A DNA stretch of 64,000 nucleotides from a virus. The stretch covers positions 1-64,000 of IMG/VR virus record IMGVR_UViG_3300022752_004079. The stretch is one strand, 5' to 3'. Positions 5,737-62,705 of the stretch are shown one piece after another. Each line of letters starts with the position of its first letter. Within the stretch, counting starts at the first letter, position 1. The notes under the pieces were generated by a model that did not search any database, had not been told where the DNA came from, and saw nothing but the letters and a program-made list of their open reading frames with translations. A program made the translations under genes and the position numbers.

Positions 5737-7680
5737 TTATTTGATTGTTTTTACGACTTCACCATTTTCATATATTTCGATAACAATGCCCGTTGCCGAT
5801 TCATCAATATCCTGTCCTAACAAATTAGTGCGCCGAGATATTATTCGAATACTTGATTTATTGTTGATTACTATAGGATCAAACACTTCATATGCTCCGT
5901 CGACGTCATACTGAGTCAGTCTGTAATAATTGTACGTAGGTTTAACTGCGGCATCTGTAACATCATAATGAAGTTCTTGAGTTGAATTGCCTGCGGCTGC
6001 AACTGTTGCTAGTTCAAACCATGTTACTCCATTCTCGCTTTTTTCCACTACAAAGTGAGTTGTATTATGTTCAGTAGCAGTTGCCCAATATATTAAATTA
6101 TCTGCAGCTACTTTTTTACCAGAAAAGTACAACAATTCAATTGGTAGTGCTCCCATTGTTATGATTAGAAATTGTTGTGTTTGTGTATTGCATCCGGCAG
6201 CATTTGAAACTGTAACTCGCACTGCTCCATTAGTGGTTGTTTGTGGCCATGTGAATGATATAGTCGGTGAGTTAGAATTAGGTATATTCGTCCATGCAGG
6301 TGCAGAAACTGTTTGTGTGTATGACCAAGCATAAGTGACTCCTGCAATTGGTGTGATCGAGTATGTCTCAGAGGTACCTGCAATGATATTGTTGTTTCCT
6401 GTCACACTGCTTACTGCTGGAACACTAGGATTGACAGTAACACTGGTGTTAGTTGATGCGTTGCATCCATTTGATGAAACGGTGAGTGTATAGCTTTGTG
6501 TGGCATTGGGTGTTGCCCACGGACTAGGTGCTGATGTATTTGTTAGATTAACGTTAGGTGACCATGTGTATGTAATAGGAGCTCCTACAGGCAATCCAGT
6601 CACCGTGCTAACAAGTTGAGTAGATGATCCTGCGCATATTGGGTTAATGCTCGGAGCAATACTAACAGAGGGCATCGGATTAACGGTGATTGTTGCAGCT
6701 GCACATCCTGCACTGAATTGATTGTTGTTATAGTTTCTTGCGTAGTATGTAGTTGTTGATGTCGGAGCAACAGAGATGGAATTTCCTGTACCGATGAAAG
6801 TAGAACCACAACCACCTGCATACCAGTACACAGTACCTATTGCTCCGTTTGCAGTGAGTGTTGTTGAGAAACCACTACACACTGACATAAAGCTGGCTGA
6901 TACTGATGTAGGATTAGTTGGAGGTGGAGGAGGTACGCAACTGCCCGTATATGTTACATTCAAAGCAATACCTGAACCCGTAATTGAAACATCTGAATAA
7001 AACTGCACAGTAACAGTTTGTCCTGGTGCTGATGTATAGGAAACAAATTGTCCCATTTGCCATGTACCTAGTATTGTACCACCCGTTCCGCTTCCGGAGT
7101 AGATTCGCACCCAGTCACAACAAGACTCACCTGAGGTAGATCCACTGATTGAGATTACGGCACCACCAGCATTATTTAAAACCGTGAACCCATTAGCATA
7201 GTTGGAGTAGTTTCCAAACTGACCTCCATGATCATAAAGCGTTGTGTTTGTTCCACAAGCAACACTATTGGAACCGTTATAAGGAATTAGTGTACCTCCG
7301 CTACCGCCACCACTGCATTGTGCTGTACCAATAGAACCACCAAACGATGATCCGCCGGTTTGTAGTGTTTGTAATGCAATTACTGTAGCACCCGTACTAC
7401 TAGTTACTCGAATTTGACATTCGTATGAATAGGAGCCAGTAATGGAACGCCAAACACGAATTGTTGCTCCTGCAGCGGCATTAAAAGTAACAGTAGCTGG
7501 GCCGTAACCACCACCTAAGGTAACGTTGGAAACTACAGTGATTCCATTAACTGACACAGAAGCTCGATTGCCATTCCAACCATCGCCGTAGGTGTCGGTC
7601 AGGTAAAGTGTATGAGTGCAGGTTTGCGAAAGAACGAAACTTGAGACAAAAACAAAAACAGATAGCAAAAAATTCTTCAT
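5737..7680 (-). CDS. Secreted multidomain protein with T9SS type A-like tail
   Basis: 647 residues. A Sec signal peptide (residues 1-19, ending SFVLSQ) is followed by a DTYGDGWNG domain (about 21-105), a CUB-like domain (about 130-247, containing CCDWVRIYSG), a proline linker, two Ig-like domains (about 255-335 and 337-418), another beta domain, and a LPIELLYFSG module (512 on) typical of Bacteroidota secreted proteins. The last 40 residues (TNLLGQDIDE ... GEVVKTIK) match the end of T9SS type A sorting domains, although the usual YPNP part seems missing. Export by the host T9SS and placement outside the cell is therefore inferred. Such a protein is unexpected in a phage. It appears less A+T-rich than its neighbours, consistent with acquisition from a host. 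Confidence 0.8.
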   Translation of the reverse strand: MKNFLLSVFVFVSSFVLSQTCTHTLYLTDTYGDGWNGNRASVSVNGITVVSNVTLGGGYGPATVTFNAAAGATIRVWRSITGSYSYECQIRVTSSTGATVIALQTLQTGGSSFGGSIGTAQCSGGGSGGTLIPYNGSNSVACGTNTTLYDHGGQFGNYSNYANGFTVLNNAGGAVISISGSTSGESCCDWVRIYSGSGTGGTILGTWQMGQFVSYTSAPGQTVTVQFYSDVSITGSGIALNVTYTGSCVPPPPPTNPTSVSASFMSVCSGFSTTLTANGAIGTVYWYAGGCGSTFIGTGNSISVAPTSTTTYYARNYNNNQFSAGCAAATITVNPMPSVSIAPSINPICAGSSTQLVSTVTGLPVGAPITYTWSPNVNLTNTSAPSPWATPNATQSYTLTVSSNGCNASTNTSVTVNPSVPAVSSVTGNNNIIAGTSETYSITPIAGVTYAWSYTQTVSAPAWTNIPNSNSPTISFTWPQTTTNGAVRVTVSNAAGCNTQTQQFLIITMGALPIELLYFSGKKVAADNLIYWATATEHNTTHFVVEKSENGVTWFELATVAAAGNSTQELHYDVTDAAVKPTYNYYRLTQYDVDGAYEVFDPIVINNKSSIRIISRRTNLLGQDIDESATGIVIEIYENGEVVKTIK

Positions 7681-7760
7681 ATGGTATCCTTTAATTAAAC
7701 GATACTCACTTGAAGAATCTTTTCAGAAACCCCCATCTACCATGGGCCGGTCGAGTTTAA

Positions 7761-7768
7761 TATAAATA
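7761..7768 (-). promoter_or_regulatory. Motif B (ATATTTATA) between the T9SS cargo genes
   Basis: The coding strand reads TGATATTTATATTAAACT immediately after the stop of the 812-residue gene and about 80 nt before the next start. Same motif as at 10221, 16965, 25023, 29403, 48459 and 57253. Candidate promoter element; the 80-nt gap also has a weak CCCAT/ATGGG hairpin without a T-tract. Confidence 0.4.
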
Positions 7769-10207
7769 TCAGCGAATCAATGTTATATGACCAGATACGG
7801 TATATTTTGCATCAGTATCTTTATCACCAAACCAAATTTTATAAGTATATACACCGTCTGCACATGGCAGCGCATTATACGTTCCATCCCAAGATGCAGT
7901 TGCTGAATACGATTGCCACATAATTTCGCCCCAACGATTGAATATTGTACATTGAAATTCTGCAGGATCAAAGCCTGAAGTAAATACCGGACGCCAGGTT
8001 TGATTGTGTTCATTGCCATCCGGTGTAAACGTGTTTGGCACATAGTATAAAAGTTGCGGACAACGTGATACTGTTACTGTAGTAGTTGCAGGTTGCGATA
8101 CACAACCATTAGCAGTCTGTGTTGCTTGTATGATATAAATTCCGGCCGAGCTCCATGATGCAGTAAGCGTCGGAGATTGCATCGTGTTTCCTAGCATTGT
8201 CCATTCGGTTATGCCGGCAATGTTGACTTGTGCAGTGTATGTTGATACAACCGAATCTCCTTCACAAATTTGTATGAATTGATCGTTTGGTGTAATTGCT
8301 AATACCTCGGGTTGCGGATACACTGTTATTGTGCTAAACGAAGTAAATGCACATCCACTCTGCGTATATGTATATGATATACTATTTGTACCTACCGCTT
8401 GAGTTGGATCAAATTGATTGCCCGTAACACCTAATCCGCTAAACGATCCGCCTGGCGGGCTTGCCATGAGTGTTGTATTTGCATCATATACGCAGAACGG
8501 ACCAACGGCCGTTATAGTAGGCACAATGTGCAATATGTATACATCAACACTAACTGCAGCACTAAGACATCCAAATTGATTTGCAGCAATAACTTGAACG
8601 GCTCCGCCAACTAATCCTGCGTTTAATGCACTCCAATTAACCGCAATGGCACTTGTACCTTGTCCCGATATGATATTGCCTAATGAAGTCCATGTATATG
8701 TATACCCTGGCTGTGTTGGTACTGAATAAGTAGCTGCAGTTTCACCCAAACAAACTGTATCTAATGAAGCAATTGGCCCAGTAACAACGTTGGGTGGATC
8801 GGTTAATGTAACGGTGTTGGAAGCTGTACATCCATTGGCATCCGTAACTACTACAGCATACGTACCTTGACATAGCAATGTAGCTGTTTGTGTTGTTTGC
8901 ATATTACTCCATACATACGTGTAAGGAGCTACCCCATCCGTTGGTGTTGCAGTTGCCGTTCCATTGCAATTACCAGCACATACTGGATTAGTGAATGTCA
9001 TTGACGGATCTTGCAACAGCGGCGGATCAACCAATGTAGCTATAGCATTGGCCGTGCAACCGTTGGCATCTGTTATCAACACAGAATAATTACCAGCACA
9101 AAGTTGTGTTATATTGTTTGTAGATTGTCCCGTTGTCCAGTTATATGTATATGGAGCAGTTCCATTAGTTGGTGTTATCAAAATGCTACCATTACATGAT
9201 GCATTGCACAATGGATTTGTTGCAACAACGTTGGGTGGATTCAATATCGGAGGTCCTGGAACAACTTGCACCGTATCTGGACCAGATCCAACTCCTGCAT
9301 TGCAAGTAGACCAACCTGCGTTGCAAGCACCGTATTCTAAATGACAAGTATAATATGCTCCGCCTGCAGGTGGTGTTACGGTTATTTGATTGACTCCTTG
9401 AGCTATAGGCACTGGGTTACCTACTTGATACCAAACAAGTGTTGGTGGTATTGTTGCACCCGCAGGAGTCCATCTGCGTGCATCATTAACAGCAGTCCAT
9501 TGTGTTGAGTTTCTACCAGTAACCGTAACTGCTTGTGTACCCGTTGCATCATGAATTCCATGCACTGCAGTTCCTCCGGCCCACTGCGGACAATTTGGTT
9601 TGTTGGCAATGTATGTTTCAATGATGTTAGTTGATTCGTATAATACAATATGAAATGTTCCTTGCAGATTGGTACAAGAATACATTGGTACTGCAATCCA
9701 ACTCACAACCAAACGCCTACATGGAGCAACACCTTGAATTTGATAGCGAATTTGTCCACCAATACCTGGATTCCAATCCTGCCACGGCGCCATAACACAA
9801 TTTTTTGGTACAAATGCATTTGCCGTTGGTATTGATAGTGACGTAAACGTTACGGGCTGTGCCGTTGCTCCTAAAGAAACCCATCCATTGGATCCAATTC
9901 GGAACTGAGTATATGTTGTTCCATAATAACAAAATGTAAATCCAATGTTAAATGTTCCTGATTGAGTATCATCGCCTAACGGAACTAATGTGCCTGTATT
10001 TGTTTGTGGAGCATATGATATTTGAGATACCGTGTATGCAGTTGTTGCATTAGGATTACTACCCGCACCGCATTGAGATAAATTTGCTGTTATCGTTGCG
10101 TTAGTAACTCCGCAAGGAAGAATTTGGTCTGGTCCCAATGCTGGGCAATATTGAGTATAAGCAATAATGCCAATCAACAGCATGATAATAGTGTAAACGT
10201 GTTTCAT
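7769..10207 (-). CDS. Secreted SprB-repeat adhesin-like protein with T9SS type B domain
   Basis: 812 residues. Signal peptide at 1-19 (ends IIAYTQ). A beta-sandwich region (about 55-250) is followed by two SprB-type repeats (about 327-395 and 402-470; each has CNG, APYTY and VTDANGCTA), two Ig/PKD-like domains (about 475-710), and a C-terminal gliding-motility-associated domain (about 720-812: VPNTFTPDGNEHNQTW, IFNRWGE, DGVYTYKIW). That last domain (CHU_C) is the T9SS type B sorting signal. SprB is the gliding adhesin of Flavobacterium, so this protein may be secreted to and displayed on the infected cell, or it may mimic or block the host adhesin. It forms a unit with the 647-residue cargo gene. 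Confidence 0.85.
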   Translation of the reverse strand: MKHVYTIIMLLIGIIAYTQYCPALGPDQILPCGVTNATITANLSQCGAGSNPNATTAYTVSQISYAPQTNTGTLVPLGDDTQSGTFNIGFTFCYYGTTYTQFRIGSNGWVSLGATAQPVTFTSLSIPTANAFVPKNCVMAPWQDWNPGIGGQIRYQIQGVAPCRRLVVSWIAVPMYSCTNLQGTFHIVLYESTNIIETYIANKPNCPQWAGGTAVHGIHDATGTQAVTVTGRNSTQWTAVNDARRWTPAGATIPPTLVWYQVGNPVPIAQGVNQITVTPPAGGAYYTCHLEYGACNAGWSTCNAGVGSGPDTVQVVPGPPILNPPNVVATNPLCNASCNGSILITPTNGTAPYTYNWTTGQSTNNITQLCAGNYSVLITDANGCTANAIATLVDPPLLQDPSMTFTNPVCAGNCNGTATATPTDGVAPYTYVWSNMQTTQTATLLCQGTYAVVVTDANGCTASNTVTLTDPPNVVTGPIASLDTVCLGETAATYSVPTQPGYTYTWTSLGNIISGQGTSAIAVNWSALNAGLVGGAVQVIAANQFGCLSAAVSVDVYILHIVPTITAVGPFCVYDANTTLMASPPGGSFSGLGVTGNQFDPTQAVGTNSISYTYTQSGCAFTSFSTITVYPQPEVLAITPNDQFIQICEGDSVVSTYTAQVNIAGITEWTMLGNTMQSPTLTASWSSAGIYIIQATQTANGCVSQPATTTVTVSRCPQLLYYVPNTFTPDGNEHNQTWRPVFTSGFDPAEFQCTIFNRWGEIMWQSYSATASWDGTYNALPCADGVYTYKIWFGDKDTDAKYTVSGHITLIR

Positions 10208-10220
10208 AACTAACCTTTAA

Positions 10221-10228
10221 TATAAATA
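10221..10228 (-). promoter_or_regulatory. Motif B upstream of SprB-like gene
   Basis: The coding strand reads CATATTTATATTAAAGGTTA, with ATG at 10207. The AAAGG within it (about 8 nt before the ATG) can serve as ribosome-binding site, so motif and site are adjacent. Confidence 0.45.
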
Positions 10229-10236
10229 TGTACAGT

Positions 10237-10261
10237 AAAAAACCCTGGCACGAAACCAGGG
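10237..10261 (-). terminator. Rho-independent terminator after tRNA-Glu
   Basis: On the minus strand CCCTGG (10261-10256), a 7-base loop, CCAGGG (10248-10243), then six T (10242-10237). It ends the tRNA transcript and isolates the two T9SS cargo genes from upstream transcription. Confidence 0.85.
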
Positions 10262-10344
10262 TGAACTCGAGCAGGGCCTATGTTCTGTTGCATTCCATCT
10301 TGAGAACTGCCTAATACCAGTGGGTTGGTGGTTACTCATGTTCG

Positions 10345-10416
10345 TAGTCGGTACGGGATTCGAACCCGTGTGACAAGAATGAAAATCTTGTATCCTAACC
10401 CCTAGATGAACCGACC
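10345..10416 (-). tRNA. tRNA-Glu (anticodon UUC)
   Basis: A cloverleaf can be drawn on the minus strand: acceptor stem GGTCGGT pairing with ACCGACT, D-arm with TCTAGGGGTTAGGA, anticodon stem CAAGA/TCTTG with loop TTTTCAT (anticodon TTC), and T-arm ACGGG-TTCGAAT-CCCGT. The discriminator is A and CCA is not encoded. The 1-72 pair is G-U. It lies just downstream of the 56-residue gene at 10423-10593. Confidence 0.93.
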
Positions 10417-13107: not shown

Positions 13108-15141
13108 TTATCGTGCCATTTCCAAGAATTTTGAATTCAAAGTTCGAGCTACATCATTCATGTTACGTGGATCAATAAATTTTGAATCAATCCCATACAT
13201 TCTGCGAAATGTTTCTGATTCGTTGCATGAATCTGAAATAAAATAACTAACAATGTTAATGCCCAATTCGCGGAACCCATTAATTACGCGTCTTGTAAAT
13301 CCTACGCCATCGTAACTATATGCACAACCCGAAACATTGGTTGGAAATCCATCTGAATAATTAACAAAGATACATTCATCACCTTTAGCATCTCGTTTGA
13401 TATCTTGTTCAATACTCTTAAATGCAATGCCTTCTGGAGTACATCCAAATACACTTAGATATTTGAAATAGTTTCGGATCTTGCTTAGTTTGTCATGAGC
13501 CGAATCATATGCATATATCGTTACTGCTCTTTCTTTACCACCAATGGTACTATCAGTTCCTCGAAGCGAAATTTGTACTCGAATTCCCGTCGTCATTGCT
13601 GCGGCTTGTGCTACTGCTACTGCCGATGTAATTGAATTACTAAACTTACTACCAGACATTGAGCCTGATGCATCAATTGAAATATGAATAAAATAATTTT
13701 TATAACGGTCCGTAACAATGCGATGAAATACATTTGCATTATCAAATCCTAACTGTGCAACCAATCTTCGGTCAATTTTACCTGCTTGCAATCTTGTAGT
13801 TTTCAAAGTGCGATCTGCATTTCTAAGTTGCAATTTTCTACCTAGCATTTTACCAAGGATGATGCCGCGCGTAACTGCTTTATCATTATTCAATATTGAA
13901 TTAGATTTATGAGATTTATCATCAAGCTTGCAAGTACCTGATATGAAATCTTCAGCAAATGATTCAAACATGTGCGGCATTGATGCAATAATGCCTGGAG
14001 TCAATTTTTTTATAACAATCGTATCAACAAAATCAGCGGTACCGGATTCATCTGTTGCAACTTGACGAACCTCTGTACCCGAATCGCGAACTGCATTAAC
14101 AATGTTTGATTGCGTTTTAGTCAATTTACCCGTCTTTTTATTGTTACCACTAAGAAAATCTCGTTGTCGTTCAATTGCTGTATCTAATTTTTGTCGTTCC
14201 GCCGGAGAAAGTGAAGAATTAGAAGTTGCATTGTTGCCTGAATTTGCCGATGTGCTGCCATCGTCGTTGTCATCACCACCATCATCACCACCAACATTAT
14301 CGTCGTTGGCATTACCACCATCGCCATCCGCCGCAAAGTCATCTTGTCGAGTTGTTTGTTGTTCGTCTTCTGCAACAGCATCTTTGATAAGTTTATATAC
14401 TTTGCATGCAACTAACAATGCATCTTCGGTTGATTTAAGTCGTTGAATGTTTCGCAAATCAATTACATTCCAAATATCTTGCAGTGCCTTTAAGGCTTGT
14501 AATTTGCGATTAGGATTAGTTAAATTGATAACATGAAACATGTAATCATCCCAAGACTCTTCGGTCTTTTCATTTTCGCGCAGAGCTTTATCAATAATTT
14601 TATCATTGAAATATTTGTCATACATGGCTTCATAATACATACGATAACCAGGTGCGGTTGTATAGATATGAAAGTCAATGCGGCGATCTTCAATCCAATT
14701 CAATAAATCTTTGATGATTGCAAAATCTTTATGTGACATGTTCATCTCAGGATCATATCCATTGAGTTGAATAATTTTTGCCATTTTGCTGTTGGACAAT
14801 ACACCACCTTTAAACATATCAAAATCAGTCAATGCAATATGCGAACCTTCATGCAATGCCAATCCAACTGCCGAATCAAAATTCTTGTCATCAAGTTTGG
14901 TACCAATAACAACGGATTGGCCATCGGTATAACTAGAATCTGCAGACTGAAATATTACGGGAATTGTTTTACCGGTAACAATGTTAACAAAATTAGCAAT
15001 AGCACGTTGCGTTGCAGCCAATTTGGTGTAATCAATGCCAGCACTACGTTTAAAGTTTGTATCAAAATTTTCATTCAACCAAAAGCTAGATGCTGAATTG
15101 GAAAAATATCTTTTGCCATCAAATTTGCCTAATATACTCAT
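13108..15141 (-). CDS. CobT-like VWA protein with HExxH-type motif
   Basis: 677 residues. The N-terminal third carries LALHEGSH (HEGSH at residues 97-101) and later EDRRIDFHIY (151 on), the pattern of the putative metallopeptidase region found in some VWA proteins. A long acidic, Gly/Asp-rich linker spans about 260-310. The C-terminal part is a von Willebrand A domain with an intact MIDAS, DASGS at 490-494, plus later TD/SDG residues. Such proteins pair with MoxR/CobS ATPases as chaperone-like metal- or cofactor-related remodellers. The partner ATPase is directly upstream. The target in the phage cycle is not known. A class A promoter lies just upstream. Confidence 0.85.
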   Translation of the reverse strand: MSILGKFDGKRYFSNSASSFWLNENFDTNFKRSAGIDYTKLAATQRAIANFVNIVTGKTIPVIFQSADSSYTDGQSVVIGTKLDDKNFDSAVGLALHEGSHIALTDFDMFKGGVLSNSKMAKIIQLNGYDPEMNMSHKDFAIIKDLLNWIEDRRIDFHIYTTAPGYRMYYEAMYDKYFNDKIIDKALRENEKTEESWDDYMFHVINLTNPNRKLQALKALQDIWNVIDLRNIQRLKSTEDALLVACKVYKLIKDAVAEDEQQTTRQDDFAADGDGGNANDDNVGGDDGGDDNDDGSTSANSGNNATSNSSLSPAERQKLDTAIERQRDFLSGNNKKTGKLTKTQSNIVNAVRDSGTEVRQVATDESGTADFVDTIVIKKLTPGIIASMPHMFESFAEDFISGTCKLDDKSHKSNSILNNDKAVTRGIILGKMLGRKLQLRNADRTLKTTRLQAGKIDRRLVAQLGFDNANVFHRIVTDRYKNYFIHISIDASGSMSGSKFSNSITSAVAVAQAAAMTTGIRVQISLRGTDSTIGGKERAVTIYAYDSAHDKLSKIRNYFKYLSVFGCTPEGIAFKSIEQDIKRDAKGDECIFVNYSDGFPTNVSGCAYSYDGVGFTRRVINGFRELGINIVSYFISDSCNESETFRRMYGIDSKFIDPRNMNDVARTLNSKFLEMAR

Positions 15142-15154
15142 GCTTTTTATTTTT

Positions 15155-15187
15155 CTATATAATATGAAATAAATATTCAGTTTCCAA
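15155..15187 (-). promoter_or_regulatory. Class A promoter (TTGGA-N-TATTATATAG)
   Basis: TTGGA at 15187-15183 and TATTATATAG at 15164-15155; spacing 20. Directly precedes the VWA gene and follows the terminator of the ATPase gene, so the two genes are separately transcribed. Confidence 0.65.
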
Positions 15188-15197
15188 CCATATATGC

Positions 15198-15223
15198 AAA
15201 AAAAGGCGACATTTCTGCCGCCT
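15198..15223 (-). terminator. Rho-independent terminator after AAA+ gene
   Basis: On the minus strand AGGCGGCA (15223-15216), a GAAA tetraloop, TGTCGCCT (15211-15204) and a seven-T run (15204-15198). The stem has 8 pairs, one of them G-U. Confidence 0.85.
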
Positions 15224-15241
15224 CTTTCGAGCTATGAAAAA

Positions 15242-16393
15242 TTAAAATACCGAGTCTTTTATATCATTTCCTGTATTGAAAATGTCTTTCATTTCAGTTG
15301 CCATATGTTTCTGAATGATTTGCTTGACAAAGGTTCTTTCAGAATCCGTACCACCCGATGCATCAAAGAATGGAAGAATTGCAACTTCGGCTGCCTCTGA
15401 CAAAGAAAATCCATCTGCCAACAATTCACATACGCGCACCGTCATACGAGTGGATATCATGGTAGTCAATTTACCTTCTTCTGACCTCCATTCTTTACGG
15501 GTTGCATCTGCAATATCAGCTACTGAATGAATCAATGCCTTGGATACCGTTGGGAATCGTTTAGTCAATAAATCTTCTTCTTGGGACAAAGAAAGAATAT
15601 CAACCTCAATGATTTCGAATCGATCCATTAATGCTCGGTCCAATACTCTTGTAGATGTATATTCGGTACCAATGTTTGCTGTTGCAATAAATGATACACC
15701 AGATGCAACACGGATGGTAGGAGAATTGATATCTTCATCCAATCGCAGATACCTTTGACCCTCATCCAATACTGTCATTAAGATGTTCCATGCTTCAGGG
15801 TGCGCACGGGACAACTCATCTAGCAATACAACGGCATTCTCTGTTTGAATTGCCTTGACAAATGCAGATTCATCAAATGATGTCTGACCATCTTTGAAAT
15901 GCGTATTGCCAATCAATGTTGCCCGAGGATCTTGAGTTGCACCCAAGTTAAAATAAAAGAAAGGACGATTGGTTGCTACTGGAAGATCTTTTGCGGCTTG
16001 CGTCTTACCACATCCTGCAGGGCCAACCATCATGATGTTTTTACCACGCACTGCTGACCGTACCAAATACTTCCATTTGATGTCAGACATTTCTAACGTT
16101 GCGGGTTTAATTTTATGTGCATTTTGGATTAGATGCATTACCGGATCGGCTTCTGTTGGTGTTTGTGGCATTTCTGGTTCCAAATTATTTGGTGCAAATT
16201 CTAATTCTACGTCTGATATACTTATGCGTTTAGATCGACCCGTTTCTTCATCAAACACTAACGCTTCATCATTATCGTGTGCATGTTTAATCATGATTGA
16301 TCGAAACAATGAACTGATATCATTGCCATTCGGATCTACAATAATTTGTTTGCCATTTACTACGGCTGGTACTCCAATTACTTTCTTTTTCAT
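15242..16393 (-). CDS. MoxR/CobS-type AAA+ ATPase
   Basis: 383 residues. Walker A is GPAGCGKT (124-131), Walker B is VVLLDELSRA, with the sensor-like ATANIG and an arginine-finger region (RALMDRFEII). This fits the AAA_5/CobS-MoxR group, which work with VWA proteins such as the one downstream to remodel or load metal cofactors into a target protein. The N-terminal 100 residues look like a substrate or partner region. A terminator and a second promoter separate the pair, so stoichiometry may be set independently. Confidence 0.9.
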   Translation of the reverse strand: MKKKVIGVPAVVNGKQIIVDPNGNDISSLFRSIMIKHAHDNDEALVFDEETGRSKRISISDVELEFAPNNLEPEMPQTPTEADPVMHLIQNAHKIKPATLEMSDIKWKYLVRSAVRGKNIMMVGPAGCGKTQAAKDLPVATNRPFFYFNLGATQDPRATLIGNTHFKDGQTSFDESAFVKAIQTENAVVLLDELSRAHPEAWNILMTVLDEGQRYLRLDEDINSPTIRVASGVSFIATANIGTEYTSTRVLDRALMDRFEIIEVDILSLSQEEDLLTKRFPTVSKALIHSVADIADATRKEWRSEEGKLTTMISTRMTVRVCELLADGFSLSEAAEVAILPFFDASGGTDSERTFVKQIIQKHMATEMKDIFNTGNDIKDSVF

Positions 16394-21251: not shown

Positions 21252-22154
21252 TTACTTAATAGCATGTGTTATTCTACCTTTATAAACCTTTTTTAATTGT
21301 ATGAATACATCAGCGGGTAATGTTATGTCAAACAATTCATTTACGACTGCACCTGCTTGGCCTACAAGTGATAAAATTGGACTGAGTAAGGTGGCCGCTC
21401 CAACTATAATTTTTTCAGTACTAGTCCATTTTTCAACTTTAGCACCCAACGCCAATGCAACGCCATCGGCACAATTTTGTGTCAAAACATTGTAATTTTG
21501 TATTGCTTGATTAGGACTTTTAACTGATTGTGCCAATTTATCTGCCTTGTACCCAAGTTTTAAATTTAAAGCCGGTGTTGTTTTTTTGAATTTATCATAC
21601 TCTTGATCTGTCAAATAAATATAAATTGTATGTGCATTACTTGGTTTGTCAGGAATTTTTTTACCTGTCATTGGCATATTCCAAAAGTTTTTAGTTTCTT
21701 TTCCACCAAGTATAATATCAACGTAATCCATTTGTATTGGATTTGCATTCATCTGATATTGAGGTTCTCTCAGAGACCTACATTCAATATGACCTGTGGG
21801 AAATTTTTTATCCAGTGGTGCATAATAATTTACTTGAATTGGCCATGGTGTAGCTTTACTCGTTTTTGGTTGATAGGCCAAAGCTTCTGCTTTTGCTGTC
21901 ATTTGTTTTCTAACTTGTTGTGCAGTTTTACCTTTATTAGGTCCTGCTTCATATTGTTTTGTATCTGGATTAAATCCGTACCACATGGATGTGATTGGAC
22001 GTCCCCAATTGTCTTTAATTTGTTGTGCAGTTTTACCTTTATTAGGTCCTGCTTCATATTGTTTTGTATCTGGATTAAATCCGTACCACATGGATGTTTC
22101 CAGACGTCCCCAATTGTCTTTAACTTGCTCAAGCAACATTTTTAATGATATCAT
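21252..22154 (-). CDS. Repeat-bearing protein with LxE leader (candidate internal head protein)
   Basis: 300 residues. Starts MISLKMLLE (LLE at 7-9). Residues 12-46 and 47-81 are a near-identical tandem repeat of 35 residues each (KDNWGR ... WYGFNPDTKQYEAGPNKG). The middle has SLREPQYQMNANPIQMD and IYIYLTDQEYDKFK; toward the C-terminus QNCADGVALALGA and a hydrophobic stretch (IIVGAATLLSPILSLVGQAG). NCAD with a nearby His (HIECRSL) could suggest an NlpC-like or peptidase fold, but I cannot confirm it. Flanked by a whole and a partial copy of the next upstream gene. Confidence 0.7.
   Translation of the reverse strand: MISLKMLLEQVKDNWGRLETSMWYGFNPDTKQYEAGPNKGKTAQQIKDNWGRPITSMWYGFNPDTKQYEAGPNKGKTAQQVRKQMTAKAEALAYQPKTSKATPWPIQVNYYAPLDKKFPTGHIECRSLREPQYQMNANPIQMDYVDIILGGKETKNFWNMPMTGKKIPDKPSNAHTIYIYLTDQEYDKFKKTTPALNLKLGYKADKLAQSVKSPNQAIQNYNVLTQNCADGVALALGAKVEKWTSTEKIIVGAATLLSPILSLVGQAGAVVNELFDITLPADVFIQLKKVYKGRITHAIK
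21912..22121 (-). repeat. Two tandem 105-bp coding repeats
   Basis: Units at 22017-22121 and 21912-22016 are nearly identical in DNA and give two 35-residue repeats in the 21252-22154 protein. The few differences cluster near the start of the unit, suggesting a recent duplication. Confidence 0.85.
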
Positions 22155-22543
22155 GATTTATTCCCCCAATTCTTTGCACCTTTCTTTCTGCATGCCGCAA
22201 GCGCCAATGATCCGTATGCAGATGGCCAAACATCGTATCGTGCTTTTACTTTGTAGTAGCATGCATCTCGTTTTGCTGTCTTTTTTTCTTCAATTGCACC
22301 TTCAGCTTTAGGAGTACGTTTACCCATACCAACTCGTCGCTTTTGTGCAACCAATGCTTTCTTTTCTTTTTTATCAAATGAACTCCATGTTTTAGGTGTG
22401 TCTTTTGATACTCGTCGAGAAGGTCGACACTTTTTAACTCCTTTGGTTTCGGCATTACCACAAGGTCGTCCATGTTGATCTGTCCATTTTTCTTTCACCC
22501 AACGGCGAAGATCTTCTGATAACAAATCAACTAATCGTATCAT
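22151..22543 (-). CDS. Conserved Arg/Lys-rich phage protein with LxE leader
   Basis: 130 residues. Starts MIRLVDLLSE (LSE at 8-10). The body has KWTDQHGRPCG, KKCRPSRRVS and the C-terminal KARYDVWPSAYGSLALAACR. This resembles a conserved phage family of unknown function (I believe the DUF5872-type pattern). Very basic; the Cys residues (C29, C39 and others) may bind metal. The basic nature fits a DNA-associated internal head protein. A truncated copy of its C-terminus is at 21184-21237. Confidence 0.7.
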   Translation of the reverse strand: MIRLVDLLSEDLRRWVKEKWTDQHGRPCGNAETKGVKKCRPSRRVSKDTPKTWSSFDKKEKKALVAQKRRVGMGKRTPKAEGAIEEKKTAKRDACYYKVKARYDVWPSAYGSLALAACRKKGAKNWGNKS

Positions 22544-22875
22544 TATTTTCCTCGTTCTTCACGAATAATTAATTCACCTAAAACTTCTAATCGACCAACC
22601 TCTCGTTGAAATTCAATTTGTGTCATTGAAGTGGATATGCGTTTATATGTAGCATCAAATTCTTGTTTTGCTTTATCTAAATCAAATCGACCAGCTGCGG
22701 CTCGTTTATAGTAAGGTAATTTAACTTTGAAATGATGCCAAGTAAGTAAAGCTAACCCGCCTTTCTTGTGAGCCGTATCGGCAATTTTTTCTGCACCAGC
22801 TTCTCGCGTATCAGCAAACGTTTCAAAAGTTTCTGGTTTTTCTTTTGTTTCAAAAAGTAAATTACGTAGTTTCAT
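22543..22875 (-). CDS. Conserved phage protein with LxE leader (110 aa)
   Basis: Start set at 22875 (MKLRNLLFE; LFE at 7-9); the alternative GTG further up lies next to the upstream stop. The body has KKGGLALLTWHHFKVKLPYY, a string I associate with conserved phage proteins, then a helical basic tail. Function unknown. Sits in the run of LxE-leader genes. Confidence 0.65.
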   Translation of the reverse strand: MKLRNLLFETKEKPETFETFADTREAGAEKIADTAHKKGGLALLTWHHFKVKLPYYKRAAAGRFDLDKAKQEFDATYKRISTSMTQIEFQREVGRLEVLGELIIREERGK

Positions 22876-22886
22876 ATTAATAAATA

Positions 22887-23549
22887 TCACAACGTAGGAA
22901 TCAATTTGTATGATTTTCGTCCAAATATTAACATGGATCTAAAATCGGCTTGTTGAAATGCATCCAATGAATATTTTGATAACATGTTGAATCGTTTGAT
23001 AACTGATAGTGTTTCTTGCCAATTGATATGTTGAAGCACCGTTTCTACATAATCAATATCAATTAACATATCTGATACGTCTCTATAGTCCCATTCAATA
23101 TGAACAACGGGCCGCACCTTATTTTCAAAAATATAATCAATACATAAATCTAAACCACATTTGAATTCAGCAGTTAAAATTCTTAATAGTTCAGGACGTT
23201 GAATTGCATATGTTTTTATTTGTTCTGCAGCTTCTCCCGATACTGGATATCTAAAAACAAACTGACTATGATCTAATATCAATTCTGAATTGTTGTGTTG
23301 CATAAGCCATGGTTGAATTATTGCATGAGCTCCATTTGCAGCATCTCCATCTTTATACCAGGTAGTATCATGTTCTAATACAACGTTGTTATGGCGATAA
23401 TATGCTTGTTCAATTTCGTTTAAATCAAAACCTTCATGATCAACATGACACGTATAATTTAGTAATACATGTTCTGCGACGTCATCTGGCAATGGTTTTG
23501 AAATTGTAATATCATGATAAATAGGCTTTGATACATTATAACTTAACAT
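22887..23549 (-). CDS. Hypothetical protein (220 aa), no leader
   Basis: 220 residues, starting MLSYNVSKPIYHDITISKPL. Mixed alpha/beta, no membrane segment, no recognised motif. Unlike its neighbours it has no LxE leader. TAATG overlap with the gene downstream of it in coordinate order (23549). Function unknown. Confidence 0.6.
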   Translation of the reverse strand: MLSYNVSKPIYHDITISKPLPDDVAEHVLLNYTCHVDHEGFDLNEIEQAYYRHNNVVLEHDTTWYKDGDAANGAHAIIQPWLMQHNNSELILDHSQFVFRYPVSGEAAEQIKTYAIQRPELLRILTAEFKCGLDLCIDYIFENKVRPVVHIEWDYRDVSDMLIDIDYVETVLQHINWQETLSVIKRFNMLSKYSLDAFQQADFRSMLIFGRKSYKLIPTL

Positions 23550-23947
23550 TACATCATGTTTTTTATTATGTTTGCAAAATTTGTTTTTGAATTATTAAAA
23601 TCTGAATCGGCATCATCAAATAGTTTGGTTTCATATGAATTTTTTGTTTTTTTAATCAAACAAACCGTTGCATCAAACTGTTCCAGCCCATTTAACAAAT
23701 AAACGATGCCAAAATATGCATATGAATCGCAAACTTTTGCAATGAATTCTGCTTTTGAAAATATCAATTTTAATGTACCCAAATCTTCTATAGGTGCACT
23801 AAAAACATGTTCTTTTCGTTTTAATCCTAAATATGTAAACTTAGGAGATATTTTCATTTGTTTTGAAAATTCTTTAAAAAATGGTTTAGCTAATTGTTTT
23901 GGATCAACAACATCATTTTCATTTAATATATTTTTCAATTTCATCAT
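23549..23947 (-). CDS. Hypothetical protein with LxE leader (132 aa)
   Basis: 131 or 132 residues (two ATGs at 23947 and 23944); begins MKLKNILNE after the extra Met. LNE is at residues 7-9 from the second Met. The rest is alpha/beta with an Asp/Asn-rich end (DDADSDFNNSKTN). No recognised domain. Likely part of the packaged-protein cassette. Confidence 0.65.
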   Translation of the reverse strand: MMKLKNILNENDVVDPKQLAKPFFKEFSKQMKISPKFTYLGLKRKEHVFSAPIEDLGTLKLIFSKAEFIAKVCDSYAYFGIVYLLNGLEQFDATVCLIKKTKNSYETKLFDDADSDFNNSKTNFANIIKNMM

Positions 23948-24363
23948 TTTGTTAAATCTTTGTCATCTAATGCTCCCCCAGTTACCCAAGCAGTACATGA
24001 TCTAGATCCAGCACATTTAAAATGTAAAAAATTACAATATCCTAAATCTGCTTTTTCTATGGTAGCCATGGCATCAATATTTTTTTCATTACCACGTATG
24101 CCATTTTCCATACAAACCCGCATCTTATCTGAAACATCAAATGCGGCACAATTACCACAGTGCATTGTTTTAGCAGTGGATTCATCAATTTTCCAACGCT
24201 TAGCTGCATCTTTCCAGTATTGTCCTGGTTTATCTGGGTTTGCGGGGCCGTAATAATATTCATCTATTGCACGTTGACGATTTTTAAGATTAATATGAAT
24301 ATCCTGAGTTGCAATAGGGCATCCGGTTTTAGCTTCAATCAATATATGTTTAAGCTTTTGCAT
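23944..24363 (-). CDS. Cys-rich conserved phage protein with LxE leader
   Basis: 139 residues. Starts MQKLKHILIE (LIE at 8-10). The body has CPIATQDIHINLKNRQ, CGNCAAFDVSDKM, YCNFLHFKCAGSRSCTAW: a conserved pattern in large phages with about six to eight Cys, probably a metal or Fe-S site. I recognise the pattern but not a known function. Overlaps its downstream neighbour by a few bases. Confidence 0.75.
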   Translation of the reverse strand: MQKLKHILIEAKTGCPIATQDIHINLKNRQRAIDEYYYGPANPDKPGQYWKDAAKRWKIDESTAKTMHCGNCAAFDVSDKMRVCMENGIRGNEKNIDAMATIEKADLGYCNFLHFKCAGSRSCTAWVTGGALDDKDLTK

Positions 24364-24839
24364 TATTTTCGATGTTTTGCTATTTCAACTGCTGCCAATT
24401 GTTTAAGTGCCGCACGTTTAGATTTAGGATGTTTAGATAATCTTCGACCCGATTCGGTAGTAGCAAAATAACCAGATTCTGTTTTTTCAATTCGTTCTGG
24501 CATCATTTGTTTGAGTTGATTTTTAAATCCAACTGGAACAAATTGTGGTTGTGATGTATCTCCTGAAAATCCTGGTTGTGATGTGTCATCTTGCATTTCA
24601 TTCATCATGAAATCTCCAACTTCTTGGATATCATCTTTTGAAGTTGCAATGTGATCTGCAGCCCAATCATGCCCATTGTTCAATATTTCTTGTACGCGAT
24701 GTGGATCCATTTGCAACATGGCATCTACATATTTTTTGATAGTTTTCAAATTACCAAAAAACATGTAATGATTGTTGTTGTCAGCACACGAATCTTTAGC
24801 GCCGCCGCAGCCACAACCACATTCGTTAAGTCGTTTCAT
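24363..24839 (-). CDS. Hypothetical protein with LxE leader, Cys/Gly-rich start
   Basis: Start placed at ATG 24839 (MKRLNECGCGCGG); the frame upstream would begin at TTG. LNE at residues 4-6, followed by CGCGCGGAKDSC, a possible metal or Fe-S cluster motif. Middle acidic, with a short TSQP repeat (GDTSQPGF / GDTSQPQF). The C-terminus is basic and helical. Function unknown. Confidence 0.65.
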   Translation of the reverse strand: MKRLNECGCGCGGAKDSCADNNNHYMFFGNLKTIKKYVDAMLQMDPHRVQEILNNGHDWAADHIATSKDDIQEVGDFMMNEMQDDTSQPGFSGDTSQPQFVPVGFKNQLKQMMPERIEKTESGYFATTESGRRLSKHPKSKRAALKQLAAVEIAKHRK

Positions 24840-24840
24840 G

Positions 24841-25008
24841 TTAAGCCTTTGCAATAACAGACCATATGGTTCCGGTTAATGTAACAACGCCGCCGATAAT
24901 TTCTGTTACAGCCGTTTCGTCAATCAATCCTTTAGTTACTAGTATACCACCTACAAATGTTAAAGTGTGACGAATAATACCAAGTACTTGTTCTCGTGTT
25001 AATTTCAT
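24841..25008 (-). CDS. Holin-like small membrane protein (55 aa)
   Basis: 55 residues from ATG 25008 (MKLTREQVLGIIRHTLTFVG); AAAAAGGA lies about 8 nt upstream. Two hydrophobic stretches (about 8-25 and 36-52). The pattern (EQVLGIIRHTLTFVGGILVT, TGTIWSVIAKA) resembles a family of putative phage holins. Lysis genes lie about 5 kb downstream in the reading direction, so a role in lysis is plausible, not proven. Confidence 0.6.
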   Translation of the reverse strand: MKLTREQVLGIIRHTLTFVGGILVTKGLIDETAVTEIIGGVVTLTGTIWSVIAKA

Positions 25009-25022
25009 TGTTTTCCTTTTTA

Positions 25023-25030
25023 TATAAATA
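25023..25030 (-). promoter_or_regulatory. Motif B upstream of holin-like gene
   Basis: Coding strand TGATATTTATATAAAAAGGA, 15 nt before the ATG at 25008; the motif is followed directly by the AAAAGGA ribosome-binding site. Confidence 0.45.
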
Positions 25031-25043
25031 TCATTAATATATA

Positions 25044-26321
25044 TTATGCAATTGGTATTGAAACCCAATTGGCTCCATCATATAAATAAAGTTTTCCGCC
25101 ATCAAAATCTACATATATTGATCCTTTAACTGGATATGTAGGTTGATATATAGGTAATACAAAAGTTCCCCGGGCCGTCGTTTTACCCAATTCATTTAAA
25201 TCCATAACAAAATTTGAATTTGCATAAACATTTCCATCGATGGATCCGGTTGCGTATAAAGAAGATGATGCATAAATTGATCCGGAAATAGTTGTTGCAG
25301 ATATAGTATTAGTACTAGGATTCATAGTAATATTTGTGGTCGATTTCAATGCTTCGGGTATTGTTGTTGCATTTGCAGAATCCACAATCACCGGATAATA
25401 TGTTGCATTGGTGGTAACTCGAGCAACCTCTGCTTGTTGAGCCGTAGTTGTATATGAAGCCGTTCCCATTAAAGATGCTGTTACTCCAGCGGTAATATTT
25501 AATGAACCCGTAATACCCATGGACCCGGTAATTTGTGCACTACCTGTAAAGGGAAATCCCGTTCCCGTTCCACCGCCGGCGTTTAAAGCATATGATGCTG
25601 TTGTAGCAAATGATGAACTCAATGCTGTGATTGCTCTAGATGCCGTTACTGCAAATGAAGCCGTTGTGGCATATGATGAACTTACTGCTTGTAAAACATA
25701 TGATGCTGTTGTAGCAAATGATGCCGTACCTTGCAACGAAGCCGTAACACCTGCTGTTACTTGCAATGATCCGGTGATTTGTAAATTATTTGTTGTTGCA
25801 TACGCAGATCCAGTTGCAGCAAAAATTCCTCCTCCACCGCCTGTTGCATTAAGAGCATATGATGCTGTTGTAGCAAATGAACTAGATAATGCTTGAGACG
25901 CAAATGAAGCCGTACCTTGCAATGAACCAGTAAATGATGTTGCAACAATGCGACTTGTGGTAGAAATACCATTTTGGTTGAAGCTAGAAGAAATAACACC
26001 GCCATAGTGTCGTATCACGGTATTAAAATTTTCATCCGCCGAATTGAATTGCATATTATCTGCAGTTAAACCAATTCCATAATTAGTGCCGTTATCGATG
26101 TTGATGCCAGTTGTTGTAACCGCACCGCCTATATTAATAGCACCCGTAGTTGATATGGTTGATACAGTAACGGGGCCGCCCGTCAATGACCCACTAAATG
26201 ATCCTGATGCAACCACCGTTGTTGTTGTGCTAGTTCCATCCAATGCATCAATAATATTTGTTACGTGTGATGGTTGTATTGTTCCACCTCCGGTAATTCC
26301 GGTTCTACTTATTGTTGGCAT
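25044..26321 (-). CDS. Tail-fibre-like repeat protein
   Basis: 425 residues, starting MPTISRTGITGGG. Rich in Ser, Thr, Ala and Gly with a strongly repeated GTASFATTASYAL pattern and GSL..ITGS units over about residues 130-290, a beta-repetitive architecture typical of tail fibres or other virion appendages. The C-terminal end (KGSIYVDFDGGKLYLYDGAN) looks like a compact tip. No chaperone or enzyme domain seen. The ATG has AAGGATG a few bases upstream. Confidence 0.8.
   Translation of the reverse strand: MPTISRTGITGGGTIQPSHVTNIIDALDGTSTTTTVVASGSFSGSLTGGPVTVSTISTTGAINIGGAVTTTGINIDNGTNYGIGLTADNMQFNSADENFNTVIRHYGGVISSSFNQNGISTTSRIVATSFTGSLQGTASFASQALSSSFATTASYALNATGGGGGIFAATGSAYATTNNLQITGSLQVTAGVTASLQGTASFATTASYVLQAVSSSYATTASFAVTASRAITALSSSFATTASYALNAGGGTGTGFPFTGSAQITGSMGITGSLNITAGVTASLMGTASYTTTAQQAEVARVTTNATYYPVIVDSANATTIPEALKSTTNITMNPSTNTISATTISGSIYASSSLYATGSIDGNVYANSNFVMDLNELGKTTARGTFVLPIYQPTYPVKGSIYVDFDGGKLYLYDGANWVSIPIA
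25560..25930 (-). repeat. Internal repeats of tail-fibre-like gene
   Basis: The coding repeat for GTASFATTASYAL and close variants (plus-strand gcatatgatgctgttgtagc and similar) recurs at about 25587, 25690 and 25855, with shorter variants between. It is in frame and encodes protein repeats, so it is not a regulatory array. Confidence 0.7.
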
Positions 26322-26514
26322 TTACATCCTTGTTTTGTTTTTTATATCTTGACCAATTTTTTGTTTTTTCATTGAGCCATTCTTGGCGTTCATCACAGCC
26401 ACAATCTTCATCTAAAAGTTGTGCAATGCGCTTTGCTAATTTATCTAAACCAGTTGCACTAGTAATGCGTTTAATGTCATCACCCAATCCTTTACTTTGC
26501 ATATTTGCTCCCAT
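26305..26514 (-). CDS. Conserved small phage protein, CGCDER motif (69 aa)
   Basis: 69 residues. Has SKGLGDDIKRITSATGLDKL and DEDCGCDERQEWLN, a short pattern I associate with conserved phage proteins next to virion genes. Two Cys in CGC could bind metal. Overlaps the tail-fibre-like start and the next gene. Function unknown. Confidence 0.65.
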   Translation of the reverse strand: MGANMQSKGLGDDIKRITSATGLDKLAKRIAQLLDEDCGCDERQEWLNEKTKNWSRYKKQNKDVNANNK

Positions 26515-27532
26515 TTTGTATCTTATTTAATAATTGTATCATAAACGTCTGCCACTGCGCAGTATGTGGAATTTCAAATACGCGTTTTCCTGGATATGTA
26601 TATTCTTGTTCTGGGTGCATCAATTGCATATGTCCCGTATCATCAATCCCTAATACTTTGAATGGCACATTGCGCATTGTTATCCGGCGGCTTGGAATCA
26701 TGGTGCATCGACCTGGGTGACTCCATTGCCCCATTGGATCTTTAACACCATTTGTTTGTTGTATGATATTATCCCAATCGGTTTCGGATAGTATTTTTTG
26801 TTTGGTTACGTGTCGTGCTAATGACTCCACAACTGAATCGTCTATTATCATGTTACCCATATTCAAACGTTGCAACATTTCTTTTAATCTATCAAGCAAT
26901 CCTTTGTTTCGCAAATACTTAAATGCTAAATTTTCTACGGAATATTCTCCCGCAGTATCTAATCCCGATTGTCGTAATTTGCGTAATTTAACAAGTATGC
27001 GACCAATTTTCATTTCAGCATTTGGATCAGATTCTGATATTTTATTTATTTCATATTCATATGGTGCAGCTTTTTGTTGAATCAAATCATCATCAATTGA
27101 AACAATATCTGCTGAAGGTTTGCGTATCCATTTATTTTTCATTACAGAAAATACGCCAACCGAAGCATGCAAATTTTCATTTACGTCTTGTGCATACAAT
27201 TCGATGTTCATGCCTTTAAATGTTAACGGATATTTTGAATTCCAAACGCTTTTTTTGGCTTGTAGGTACTTTTCAACTAAATATAAATTGCTGCCAACAT
27301 TCAAATAGTTTATTACAACATGCAAATCTATGTCACTATGTTCCGTCCAATTGTAATTTGCATTGCTTCCAATCAAAATAACATCTAAAATAGGTGCATC
27401 AATTTCTAAAAAATCATGAAACTTTGTAGCAATTTTCAAAAACCCATTGCGAAGCTTCTTAGACAAACAATGATCTGCAGTCCAAAGTTTTGTGTTGAGT
27501 TGATGCTGCGTTTCATATTCTAAAAGTTTCAT
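26492..27532 (-). CDS. Nucleotidyltransferase-fold protein with LxE leader
   Basis: 346 residues. Begins MKLLEYE (LLE at 3-5). The core DVILIGSNANYNWTEHSDID matches the NTase fold: GS motif, then D-x-D in SDIDLHVV. The third acidic residue may be in IELYAQDV. NTase-fold enzymes transfer nucleotides to small molecules, RNA or proteins, as in MenT or HEPN/MNT toxins. The final part (about 250 on) is different. If packaged and injected, it could modify host targets. Substrate unknown. Confidence 0.75.
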   Translation of the reverse strand: MKLLEYETQHQLNTKLWTADHCLSKKLRNGFLKIATKFHDFLEIDAPILDVILIGSNANYNWTEHSDIDLHVVINYLNVGSNLYLVEKYLQAKKSVWNSKYPLTFKGMNIELYAQDVNENLHASVGVFSVMKNKWIRKPSADIVSIDDDLIQQKAAPYEYEINKISESDPNAEMKIGRILVKLRKLRQSGLDTAGEYSVENLAFKYLRNKGLLDRLKEMLQRLNMGNMIIDDSVVESLARHVTKQKILSETDWDNIIQQTNGVKDPMGQWSHPGRCTMIPSRRITMRNVPFKVLGIDDTGHMQLMHPEQEYTYPGKRVFEIPHTAQWQTFMIQLLNKIQNGSKYAK

Positions 27533-29383
27533 TTAAAACCGCCGTTTAAAGTTTTGCTTTTGTATTGTTTCTTCTTCTTCTTGATTTTGTAAACGAGGAT
27601 CATCTGAATCAACTACTTTATAATCTTTTGGAACATATGGTTTTTCATTGCCCAATGTTTGTCGAGCAATTCCTCCTATTATAGGTATTTGTACTACTTT
27701 TTTTACAACACCGCCTGCCTTGTTTCGTATCTTGTCAATTGGTTCGCCGATTTGGGTGTTTTTGGTTGCATCCAATGTAGCTTTAAGTAATGGATAAAAC
27801 AATCCATTAACATCATCTCGTTCACTCACACCCAATTCAATTTTTGCATCTTCGCCCATATCTTGAATTTCATTCCATATAACATCTACATTTTTGTTAA
27901 AATTAAAATCTGCCGGTTGAAATTTATACATTTCTTTACTAAATAATGTAGGTAAATTTGATGTGGCGCTACTACGATACATGTTATATAATATATTATC
28001 ATTTTTCATTGCAAAATTTCCAATTGTACTGCCAATTTCATCATATAATCCAGTTAAATTTGGTTGATTTTTAATATAATCAAACATTTTAATATATGCT
28101 TCTGAATCAGTGCCTACGCTTCCGAGATTTTGATACATTCTATTAGCATCGGCCGGACTCATTCTTGTGGTTATTGTTGTCATTATGTCTTGTTTTAATC
28201 GTTCAGCCGCTTTTGCATTAGGTGTAGTTGACAATATTGATGCTAAACGTTTAGGATCATTTTTTAATCTTCGAATAAATCTAGCATCTAAAGCTTTAGA
28301 TAATGCTTCTATTTTTTTCTTTGGAAATATATTGAATTTTTCTATTCTTTTACGTAATCCGCGAAACATTCCTTTTTCAATGTTTGATGTAGTTTTAAAT
28401 GCCATTTTACCTGCATCAACTGCAACTCCGGTACTTTTTGCAGCAGATAATACATCATCAATTGATCTACCATTTGCTTTGCAAAAATTTTCAAATTGTT
28501 CTAAAGTTTCACCAGCTTGTTTAGAATTTAAACCAGGTATTCCGCTTCTAGATAAAAATCCTCGAAATCCAGCAACGTCATCTCCAAATTTTCCTAAGCC
28601 TTCGGAAATTAATTTTAATTGTTCCGGTGAAATTTTTTCACTGTTTTTAAGTAATAACCAAATTTCGTCAGCTGATTTAGTACCAGCCCATACATCACCA
28701 ATTGCCCGAGCAACCCACTTAAATGGTTTGAATGCTGTTTTCAAAGCCAAAGCAGCTGCGCTACCTATTATAGGAATAATAGCAATGCATGATAAGAATC
28801 CATCCAAATATTTTCCTCGAGCAAAATATATTATAGCATTTAAAATATCAATAAAATCTCCAATTACTGGAATCCATCCGGCAAAATCCAATATCGTTTG
28901 TATAGTATCTATTACATCATTCCCCGAATCTGCCTCAACTGTTTCTATATTAAATGTTGCAACCGATTTGTTTATTCCATTTTCTAAAAATTTATTGTTA
29001 GAACTTGTTATTGTTCCAGCTACTTTATCGGAATTTGCAGAATCTAATAATTCTATTTCATCGGAACTATTAATTTTTACGTTTAACTTTTTTGATTCAT
29101 TTCCAGAATATACGGTTCCACTATGATAAAACATAAGTCTATCTCGAACACCATCTGGAGTTTGTATAATTAGTTCATAATGAGCTGGAGATTTGTCTGG
29201 ATCCATCATTGATCCAGGAAATGGTAAAGCTCCTAGTTCAATAAGTTTGTCTTCAACTTTTGCTAATTCTCCGGACCAACTTTGTTTTGGTTGCCATTTT
29301 GTATCTAATACATTACTTTTAGTTAATAAATCTTCACGTAATAGTTTTTCAATTAAAATTCTTTTTTTAGAAACATTTTTCAT
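27533..29383 (-). CDS. Large protein with membrane hairpin and two LxE motifs
   Basis: 616 residues. Begins MKNVSKKRILIEKLLRE, with LIE (10-12) and LRE (15-17). After an N-terminal domain, residues about 165-235 have a long hydrophobic hairpin (GWIPVIGDFIDILNAIIYFA, IAIIPIIGSAAALALK) like those in pretoxin or ejection proteins. Later parts are helical and basic. It could form part of a channel for DNA or protein delivery. No toxin domain is evident. Motif B and an AAGGA site precede it. Confidence 0.7.
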   Translation of the reverse strand: MKNVSKKRILIEKLLREDLLTKSNVLDTKWQPKQSWSGELAKVEDKLIELGALPFPGSMMDPDKSPAHYELIIQTPDGVRDRLMFYHSGTVYSGNESKKLNVKINSSDEIELLDSANSDKVAGTITSSNNKFLENGINKSVATFNIETVEADSGNDVIDTIQTILDFAGWIPVIGDFIDILNAIIYFARGKYLDGFLSCIAIIPIIGSAAALALKTAFKPFKWVARAIGDVWAGTKSADEIWLLLKNSEKISPEQLKLISEGLGKFGDDVAGFRGFLSRSGIPGLNSKQAGETLEQFENFCKANGRSIDDVLSAAKSTGVAVDAGKMAFKTTSNIEKGMFRGLRKRIEKFNIFPKKKIEALSKALDARFIRRLKNDPKRLASILSTTPNAKAAERLKQDIMTTITTRMSPADANRMYQNLGSVGTDSEAYIKMFDYIKNQPNLTGLYDEIGSTIGNFAMKNDNILYNMYRSSATSNLPTLFSKEMYKFQPADFNFNKNVDVIWNEIQDMGEDAKIELGVSERDDVNGLFYPLLKATLDATKNTQIGEPIDKIRNKAGGVVKKVVQIPIIGGIARQTLGNEKPYVPKDYKVVDSDDPRLQNQEEEETIQKQNFKRRF

Positions 29384-38954: not shown

Positions 38955-38977
38955 ATATTTCTTATTATATAAAATTT

Positions 38978-43989: not shown

Positions 43990-43997
43990 AAAATTAA

Positions 43998-44618: not shown

Positions 44619-44634
44619 ATTTGTCCTTATATTT

Positions 44635-61057: not shown

Positions 61058-61113
61058 CGTGTTATTTCGTATATAATTTTAATATCGCCAATAGTTGTTG
61101 TTGTGTAATACAT
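61054..61113 (-). CDS. Tiny peptide gene (19 aa) with strong RBS
   Basis: MYYTTTTIGDIKIIYEITR. ATG at 61113 overlaps the queE stop (TAATG), a strong GAGGAG lies about 5 nt upstream, and the stop overlaps the thioredoxin start (ATGA). The perfect fit between two genes suggests translation, perhaps to couple queE and trx. Confidence 0.45.
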   Translation of the reverse strand: MYYTTTTIGDIKIIYEITR

Positions 61114-62704: not shown

Positions 62705-62705
62705 A

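Follow-up and report, generated by a model that had tools for sequence, protein, structure and literature searches.

Why would a bacteriophage carry genes for proteins addressed to the type IX secretion system (T9SS) of its host? The question is raised by two neighboring genes in a stretch of 64,000 nucleotides (the window), positions 1 to 64,000 of the 71,599-base IMG/VR virus record IMGVR_UViG_3300022752_004079. Gene A (7769..10207) encodes 812 amino acids with a signal peptide, an N-terminal domain common to its phage homologs, two SprB repeats, a PKD/Ig-like region and a CHU_C-type C-terminal domain of T9SS type B; gene B (5737..7680) encodes 647 amino acids with a signal peptide, an N-terminal domain, an Ig_7 domain, further beta domains and a short type-A-like tail. 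Both lie on the minus strand, as do all features located below within the pair or just upstream of it. An original prediction had described the two as phage-encoded T9SS cargo; its positions and reading frames proved exact, both open reading frames (ORFs) are intact, and the cargo claim itself is well supported at the sequence level. The best explanation, to which we give slightly less than an even chance when taken as a whole, is that a large T4-like phage of T9SS-bearing Bacteroidota uses A and B as late accessory T9SS cargo that re-coats the infected cell, masks its receptors and blocks re-adsorption or superinfection.

T9SS cargo combines an N-terminal signal with a C-terminal domain. Cargo of type B probably escapes cleavage, needs no PorV and is retained at the cell surface by a PorP/SprF barrel (PMC10202324, PMC9143113). 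The original prediction placed a type B (CHU_C) domain on A and named the lack of any C-terminal profile match as grounds for giving the idea up. A matches two curated profiles above their cut-offs: TIGR04131 (45.8 bits, cut-off 35; E 5e-12) over residues 723–812 of 812, the extreme C-terminus, and PF13585 (CHU_C; 43.3 bits, cut-off 27; E 4e-11), and with a conserved alignment these mark a type B domain at residues 717–812 (7772..8059). A TIGR04183 match at residues 630–698 of A was discarded because its position is not C-terminal. The two SprB-type repeats foreseen in the larger protein were recovered as well, PF13573 matching two stretches (59.2 bits) at about residues 326–472 (8792..9232). 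Residues 1–19 of A (MKHVYTIIMLLIGIIAYTQ; 10151..10207) form a predicted signal peptide with a hydrophobic core and a ..Q cleavage site. Under a simple rule that asks for a basic N-terminus, a hydrophobic core and a Bacteroidota-type ..Q cleavage site, both proteins score positive, as had been predicted, and they are the sole ones to do so among the 89 contig ORFs of at least 80 amino acids; by this rule, 52 of 55 CHU_C-bearing phage ORFs have a signal peptide, versus 20 of 531 other ORFs. With a curated C-terminal profile and an N-terminal Sec signal peptide, A is predicted to be T9SS type B cargo, and its SprB repeats followed by a type B domain fit the layout of an SprB-like gliding adhesin. 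With profile E-values of 1e-10 to 1e-16, the matches of A and B go beyond chance.

Gene B is less canonical. Its Ig_7 (CHU_C-associated) domain, at residues 254–335 (6676..6921), is its only Pfam match (PF19081, 40.7 bits, E 3e-10) and is present in all nine members of the B family. The Ig part of the predicted CUB/Ig content was thus found on B; the CUB part was not, since B has no Pfam CUB match at E<=1, and the same stretch is badly modeled. The type-A-like tail foreseen on the 647-residue protein occupies about residues 612–647 (5740..5847) and contains TNLLGQDIDESATGIVIEIYENGEVVKTIK. That claim stands by homology to bacterial tails and to the type A domains of related phages, rather than by a curated TIGR04183 match: at the corresponding C-terminal place, PF18962 is found in five and TIGR04183 in four of the nine family members. 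Relatives of the last 137 residues of B occur in 91 of 150 genomes from the order to which Crocinitomix belongs, and among the 12 best Flavobacteriales loci examined, ten end exactly in the tail 'NLLGQ-V-E--KG-VI--Y-DGT--K' ('TNLLGQ...' in B), with a canonical type A tail in its stead in the remaining two. Because the support comes from homology and not from a curated profile, we treat B as type-A-like T9SS cargo. Structure prediction added little: the AlphaFold model of A (mean predicted local distance difference test score 42) was unusable, and that of B (mean 62) gave general Ig-chain matches in Foldseek, with no assignable function.

These genes recur well beyond the window. Full-length homologs in the viral contigs of other phages are 57–78% identical, and CHU_C relatives are encoded in at least 574 viral-contig stretches. 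We compared the window phage (G000) with two relatives. Its sister G004 is 159,586 bases long, and the DNA polymerases of the two are 90% identical; an exact end repeat of 64 bases in G004 falls within gene A, so that the genome closes through A; G003 (166,116 bases) has an end repeat of 127 bases. Both carry sheath, tube, baseplate and other T4-like structural genes together with A and B, which are adjacent in G004 and about 70 kb apart in G003. Two huge phages, LR745206 and LR756502 (635 and 642 kb), also encode relatives of A, with four and three TIGR04131 matches and three and one TIGR04183 matches, respectively; in a DNA similarity comparison of the window with annotated phages, only LR745206, itself unannotated, was matched. 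Among 13 long records found through the window DNA polymerase, four have a TIGR04131 match, which is a lower bound because many of the records are fragments. To judge from these comparisons, A and B are genuine phage genes.

They are also maintained. Between sister phages, A and B have ratios of nonsynonymous to synonymous substitution rates (dN/dS) of 0.12 and 0.08, respectively, which indicates purifying selection on both, and the C-terminal domain is as constrained as the rest of the protein. When G000 is compared with G003, identity reaches 62% for A and 69% for B, above that of the DNA polymerase (32%) and above the median for 33 shared proteins (40%), which suggests that the cassettes are probably exchanged between phage lineages and then kept.

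Gene A is nevertheless apparently dispensable for tail architecture. In 48 of 75 CHU_C viral loci, a set that was not dereplicated, A sits directly behind the tail tube gene and ahead of a 123-amino-acid gene and a baseplate gene. A survey anchored on the tube gene gave 66 informative loci, 58 of which run from tube straight to the baseplate or 123-amino-acid gene, with A between in the other eight. Empty sites (L145, L175) compared with occupied ones (L009, L010) have unchanged flanks and clean insertion boundaries, and A enters downstream of the hairpin that terminates the tube gene (−13.3 kcal/mol, z −3.4) and ahead of the promoter motif belonging to the following gene. Because the insertion is clean and most related loci are without A, we regard A as an optional cassette, an accessory ('moron'-type) element by these comparisons and not an essential tail part. 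As to a promoter and terminator of their own, which a moron might have, the window has a putative late-promoter motif for each of A and B and a terminator-like hairpin upstream of A, with none shown downstream, and the tail-locus copies of A have no exact promoter motif.

The promoter motif speaks to timing. In G003 and G004, TATTTATAWTAAA, either perfect or with a single mismatch, precedes the genes for sheath, tube, baseplate and tape measure as well as further structural genes. The window holds three exact matches versus 0.18 expected by chance, two of which are the putative phage late promoters of A (TATTTATATTAAA; 10216..10228) and B (TATTTATATTAAA; 7756..7768), and the third precedes a 616-amino-acid gene at 27533-29383. 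We take the motif to be a putative late promoter, from which late timing of A and B would follow. Upstream of A are a tRNA-Glu gene (10344..10416; ARAGORN) and, between the two, the hairpin, which resembles an intrinsic terminator (10242..10262); with two such sites in the region versus 4.2 expected in shuffles it is weak alone, and a stem with a T-run occupies the matching place in the sister phage L003.

How might such a pair work? In the mechanism that we favor, A and B would be transcribed late, alongside virion genes, from the phage late promoter. Their signal peptides would carry them across the inner membrane, and after folding in the periplasm their C-terminal domains would hand them to the host T9SS, A as type B cargo, to be anchored on a host PorP/SprF barrel as the gliding adhesin SprB is, and B as type-A-like cargo in the manner of RemA. 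The adhesin-like Ig/SprB stalks could then coat the surface of the infected cell and mask or displace T9SS-exported adhesins that serve as putative phage receptors; Flavobacterium phage receptors are thought to belong to the gliding machinery (PMC7345892). The benefit would be that progeny and competing phages are kept off infected cells and debris. Because export tags and apparent co-expression with virion genes come together here, the infected-cell surface is probably re-coated by the virus.

Several points weigh against this proposal. T9SS export of A and B is a prediction from sequence, and profile searches with TIGR04183 and PF18962 gave no match in the window copy of B, so the curated type A profile failed there. 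Just before A, the tail-locus clade keeps the promoter motif only in part, with no exact copy. A cognate PorP/SprF gene near type B cargo is usual in bacteria, if not universal (PMC10202324), and genes of this kind usually cluster with their own PorP/SprF, yet TIGR03519 had no match in 16 phage records, leaving no phage-encoded SprF partner for A among them; the same profile detects 2–23 PorP/SprF copies in six CHU_C-bearing bacterial genomes. Because the phage records examined are without PorP/SprF, A would need a host barrel. Finally, exclusion proteins are usually early (PMC9586334), and late timing is a better fit to progeny protection at lysis than to exclusion of rivals.

The chief rival, which we consider unlikely, keeps the same export route and gives it an adhesive purpose: the stalks would tether the infected cell to its neighbors or to particles, through aggregation or a matrix, and in this way bring released phages into contact with new hosts. 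Both SprB and Ig_7 are modules of adhesins, and between phages the central modules of B differ or are swapped and the number of SprB copies in A varies. GhpA, the grappling hook protein of Aureispira (PDB 9flp and others), points the same way: it alone among solved structures is related to the A profile (E 1.9e-15), it alone is matched in sequence by the B profile (E 1.2e-5), and a fragment of it tops the Foldseek hits of the B model. GhpA is a bacterial protein of 5898 residues, and its match to A spans the SprB/PKD/Ig parts but leaves out the N-terminal domain. Such stalk domains, which make up the matched parts, are common to many T9SS proteins and hence say little about a ligand, and no ligand-binding domain was identified in A or B.

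A second rival would have A act by competition, taking the PorP/SprF barrel and T9SS throughput from host SprB, so that gliding stops and the cell either stays put or loses SprB-type receptors. A is predicted to be type B cargo and contains SprB repeats, SprB itself binds SprF (PMC9143113), and a phage without PorP/SprF must share the host barrel. We find this quite improbable: PorP/SprF proteins are often cargo-specific, and with 2–23 paralogs in the bacteria examined, competition with SprB itself is uncertain. Very unlikely, in our judgment, is that A is a virion-associated tail decoration whose CHU_C-like domain is incidental. Its position directly behind the tube gene in those 48 of 75 loci (not dereplicated) and the structural genes' promoter motif that it has in the window lineage would suit such a part, but the signal peptides (52 of 55) would withdraw A from cytoplasmic assembly, 58 of the 66 informative loci have matching tube and baseplate genes without A, and in the window lineage A lies outside the tail module. 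Bacterial contamination or a chimeric assembly, a misjoined contig of the kind that the original prediction had flagged as its undoing, can be practically dismissed despite the 42% G+C content of the pair versus about 33–36% around it, because A and B recur in complete circular phage genomes and dozens of tail modules, with independent contigs showing the same genes between the same flanks, and the best bacterial homologs of A from one pattern scan (in Crocinitomix, Saprospiraceae and others) cover parts only, at 26–51% identity.

Gene A itself varies among phages. Its homologs are about 650, 730 or 820 amino acids long, tracking SprB copy number. In seven loci (L022, L024, L075, L096, L119, L141 and L142; for example, L096:8603-10312), A is broken up into successive ORFs that all have a signal peptide of their own; the CHU_C domain is found solely on the last ORF, and the remaining ORFs end in a common C-terminal motif, PIxHN. 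The strict motif occurs in ten unique ORFs and in none beyond the split-A family among 2333 viral ORFs, and these ends are perhaps an assembly signal. Inteins were set aside as their cause, as the ORFs terminate there and no intein was seen. A metagenome-assembled genome contig labeled Sphingomonadales (L052; VHAX01000019.1) encodes part of the N-terminal domain of A (40%) together with two PorP/SprF genes and is probably a mislabeled Bacteroidota bin.

Other genes of these phages deserve mention. Many proteins start with a short N-terminal motif such as MIRLxxLLxE (window 21252-29383, and also in G003 and G004), with 9 of 75 such starts in G000 versus 1.6 in shuffled N-termini; they are reminiscent of the T4 capsid-targeting sequences cut by the prohead protease and may mark capsid-packed proteins. 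Adjacent CobT-like (VWA) and CobS-like (AAA ATPase) genes (13108-16393) are conserved in sister phages; the 677-amino-acid gene at 13108-15141 was rejected as a portal protein, its homolog L003:2181-4247 having a weak CobT VWA match. About 17 kb (31179-48438) of glycosyltransferase, nucleotide-sugar and methyltransferase-like genes, recognized by eye except for a PHROG glycosyltransferase match at 46945-48438, is unlike sister G004 in content and possibly serves surface or DNA glycan modification. A GroEL-type chaperonin is encoded in related phages (L003:4870-6480, PF00118 E 2e-85; G004:4723-6333; G003:107577-109214) and is absent from the matching place in the window phage. QueE, QueD and FolE look-alikes (61113-63371; 7-deazaguanine synthesis, by eye) are 63–85% identical to those of the distant G003, which suggests that they were probably exchanged recently.

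Among known systems, a close bacterial counterpart of the pair is found in the gliding adhesins of Flavobacterium johnsoniae, where the C-terminal domain is of type B in SprB and of type A in RemA, so that both sets hold one of each sort and A shares the SprB repeats. Whereas SprB runs to several thousand residues, the phage proteins have 812 and 647, are phage-encoded and come without an SprF partner. The statement in the original prediction that no well-described phage system uses T9SS cargo has to be withdrawn, as two reports precede it. Cryophage (Bellas et al. 2020), a 76-kb phage of Bacteroidetes, likewise encodes cargo with T9SS sorting domains, in three type A genes, and its authors propose a T9SS hijack, possibly for superinfection exclusion (PMC7468147); the products are endoglucanase, GH39 and PA14 proteins, not SprB-type type B adhesins, and promoter or tail-locus evidence does not appear in the passages covered. 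In gut phages of crAss-BACON cluster 2, genes with a T9SS sorting domain lie upstream of the head module, but with BACON domains, and the sorting domain is noted and not analyzed further (PMC6949934, 2019).

For the proposed function, the T5 superinfection exclusion lipoprotein Llp is a phage-encoded envelope protein that blocks receptor use, although it is small and periplasmic, has a known receptor and does not involve T9SS (PMC9586334). CwpV of Clostridium difficile is a large repeat-containing surface protein that blocks phage infection, but it is host-encoded and Gram-positive and acts after adsorption (PMC4737114). In literature that we covered in part, SprB-type type B cargo was not seen described for the tail locus of large phages or together with a phage late promoter. 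Phage T9SS cargo is already known, then, and its SprB-type, apparently late-expressed form seems to be new and widespread.

A broader idea, which we hold to be possible if somewhat unlikely, is that large and huge Bacteroidota phages own late gliding-adhesin mimics, in one piece or split into three subunits, that would use the T9SS to seize host PorP/SprF anchors, swap the surface coat before lysis and shut off SprB/RemA-type receptors. T9SS is a main surface-building route in many Bacteroidota, and its use by phages is not known in detail; surface proteins of the gliding machinery are suspected phage receptors in these bacteria. A conserved SprB-type cassette under a putative phage promoter makes it testable whether phages re-coat their hosts through T9SS and whether Bacteroidota phages exclude one another in this way.

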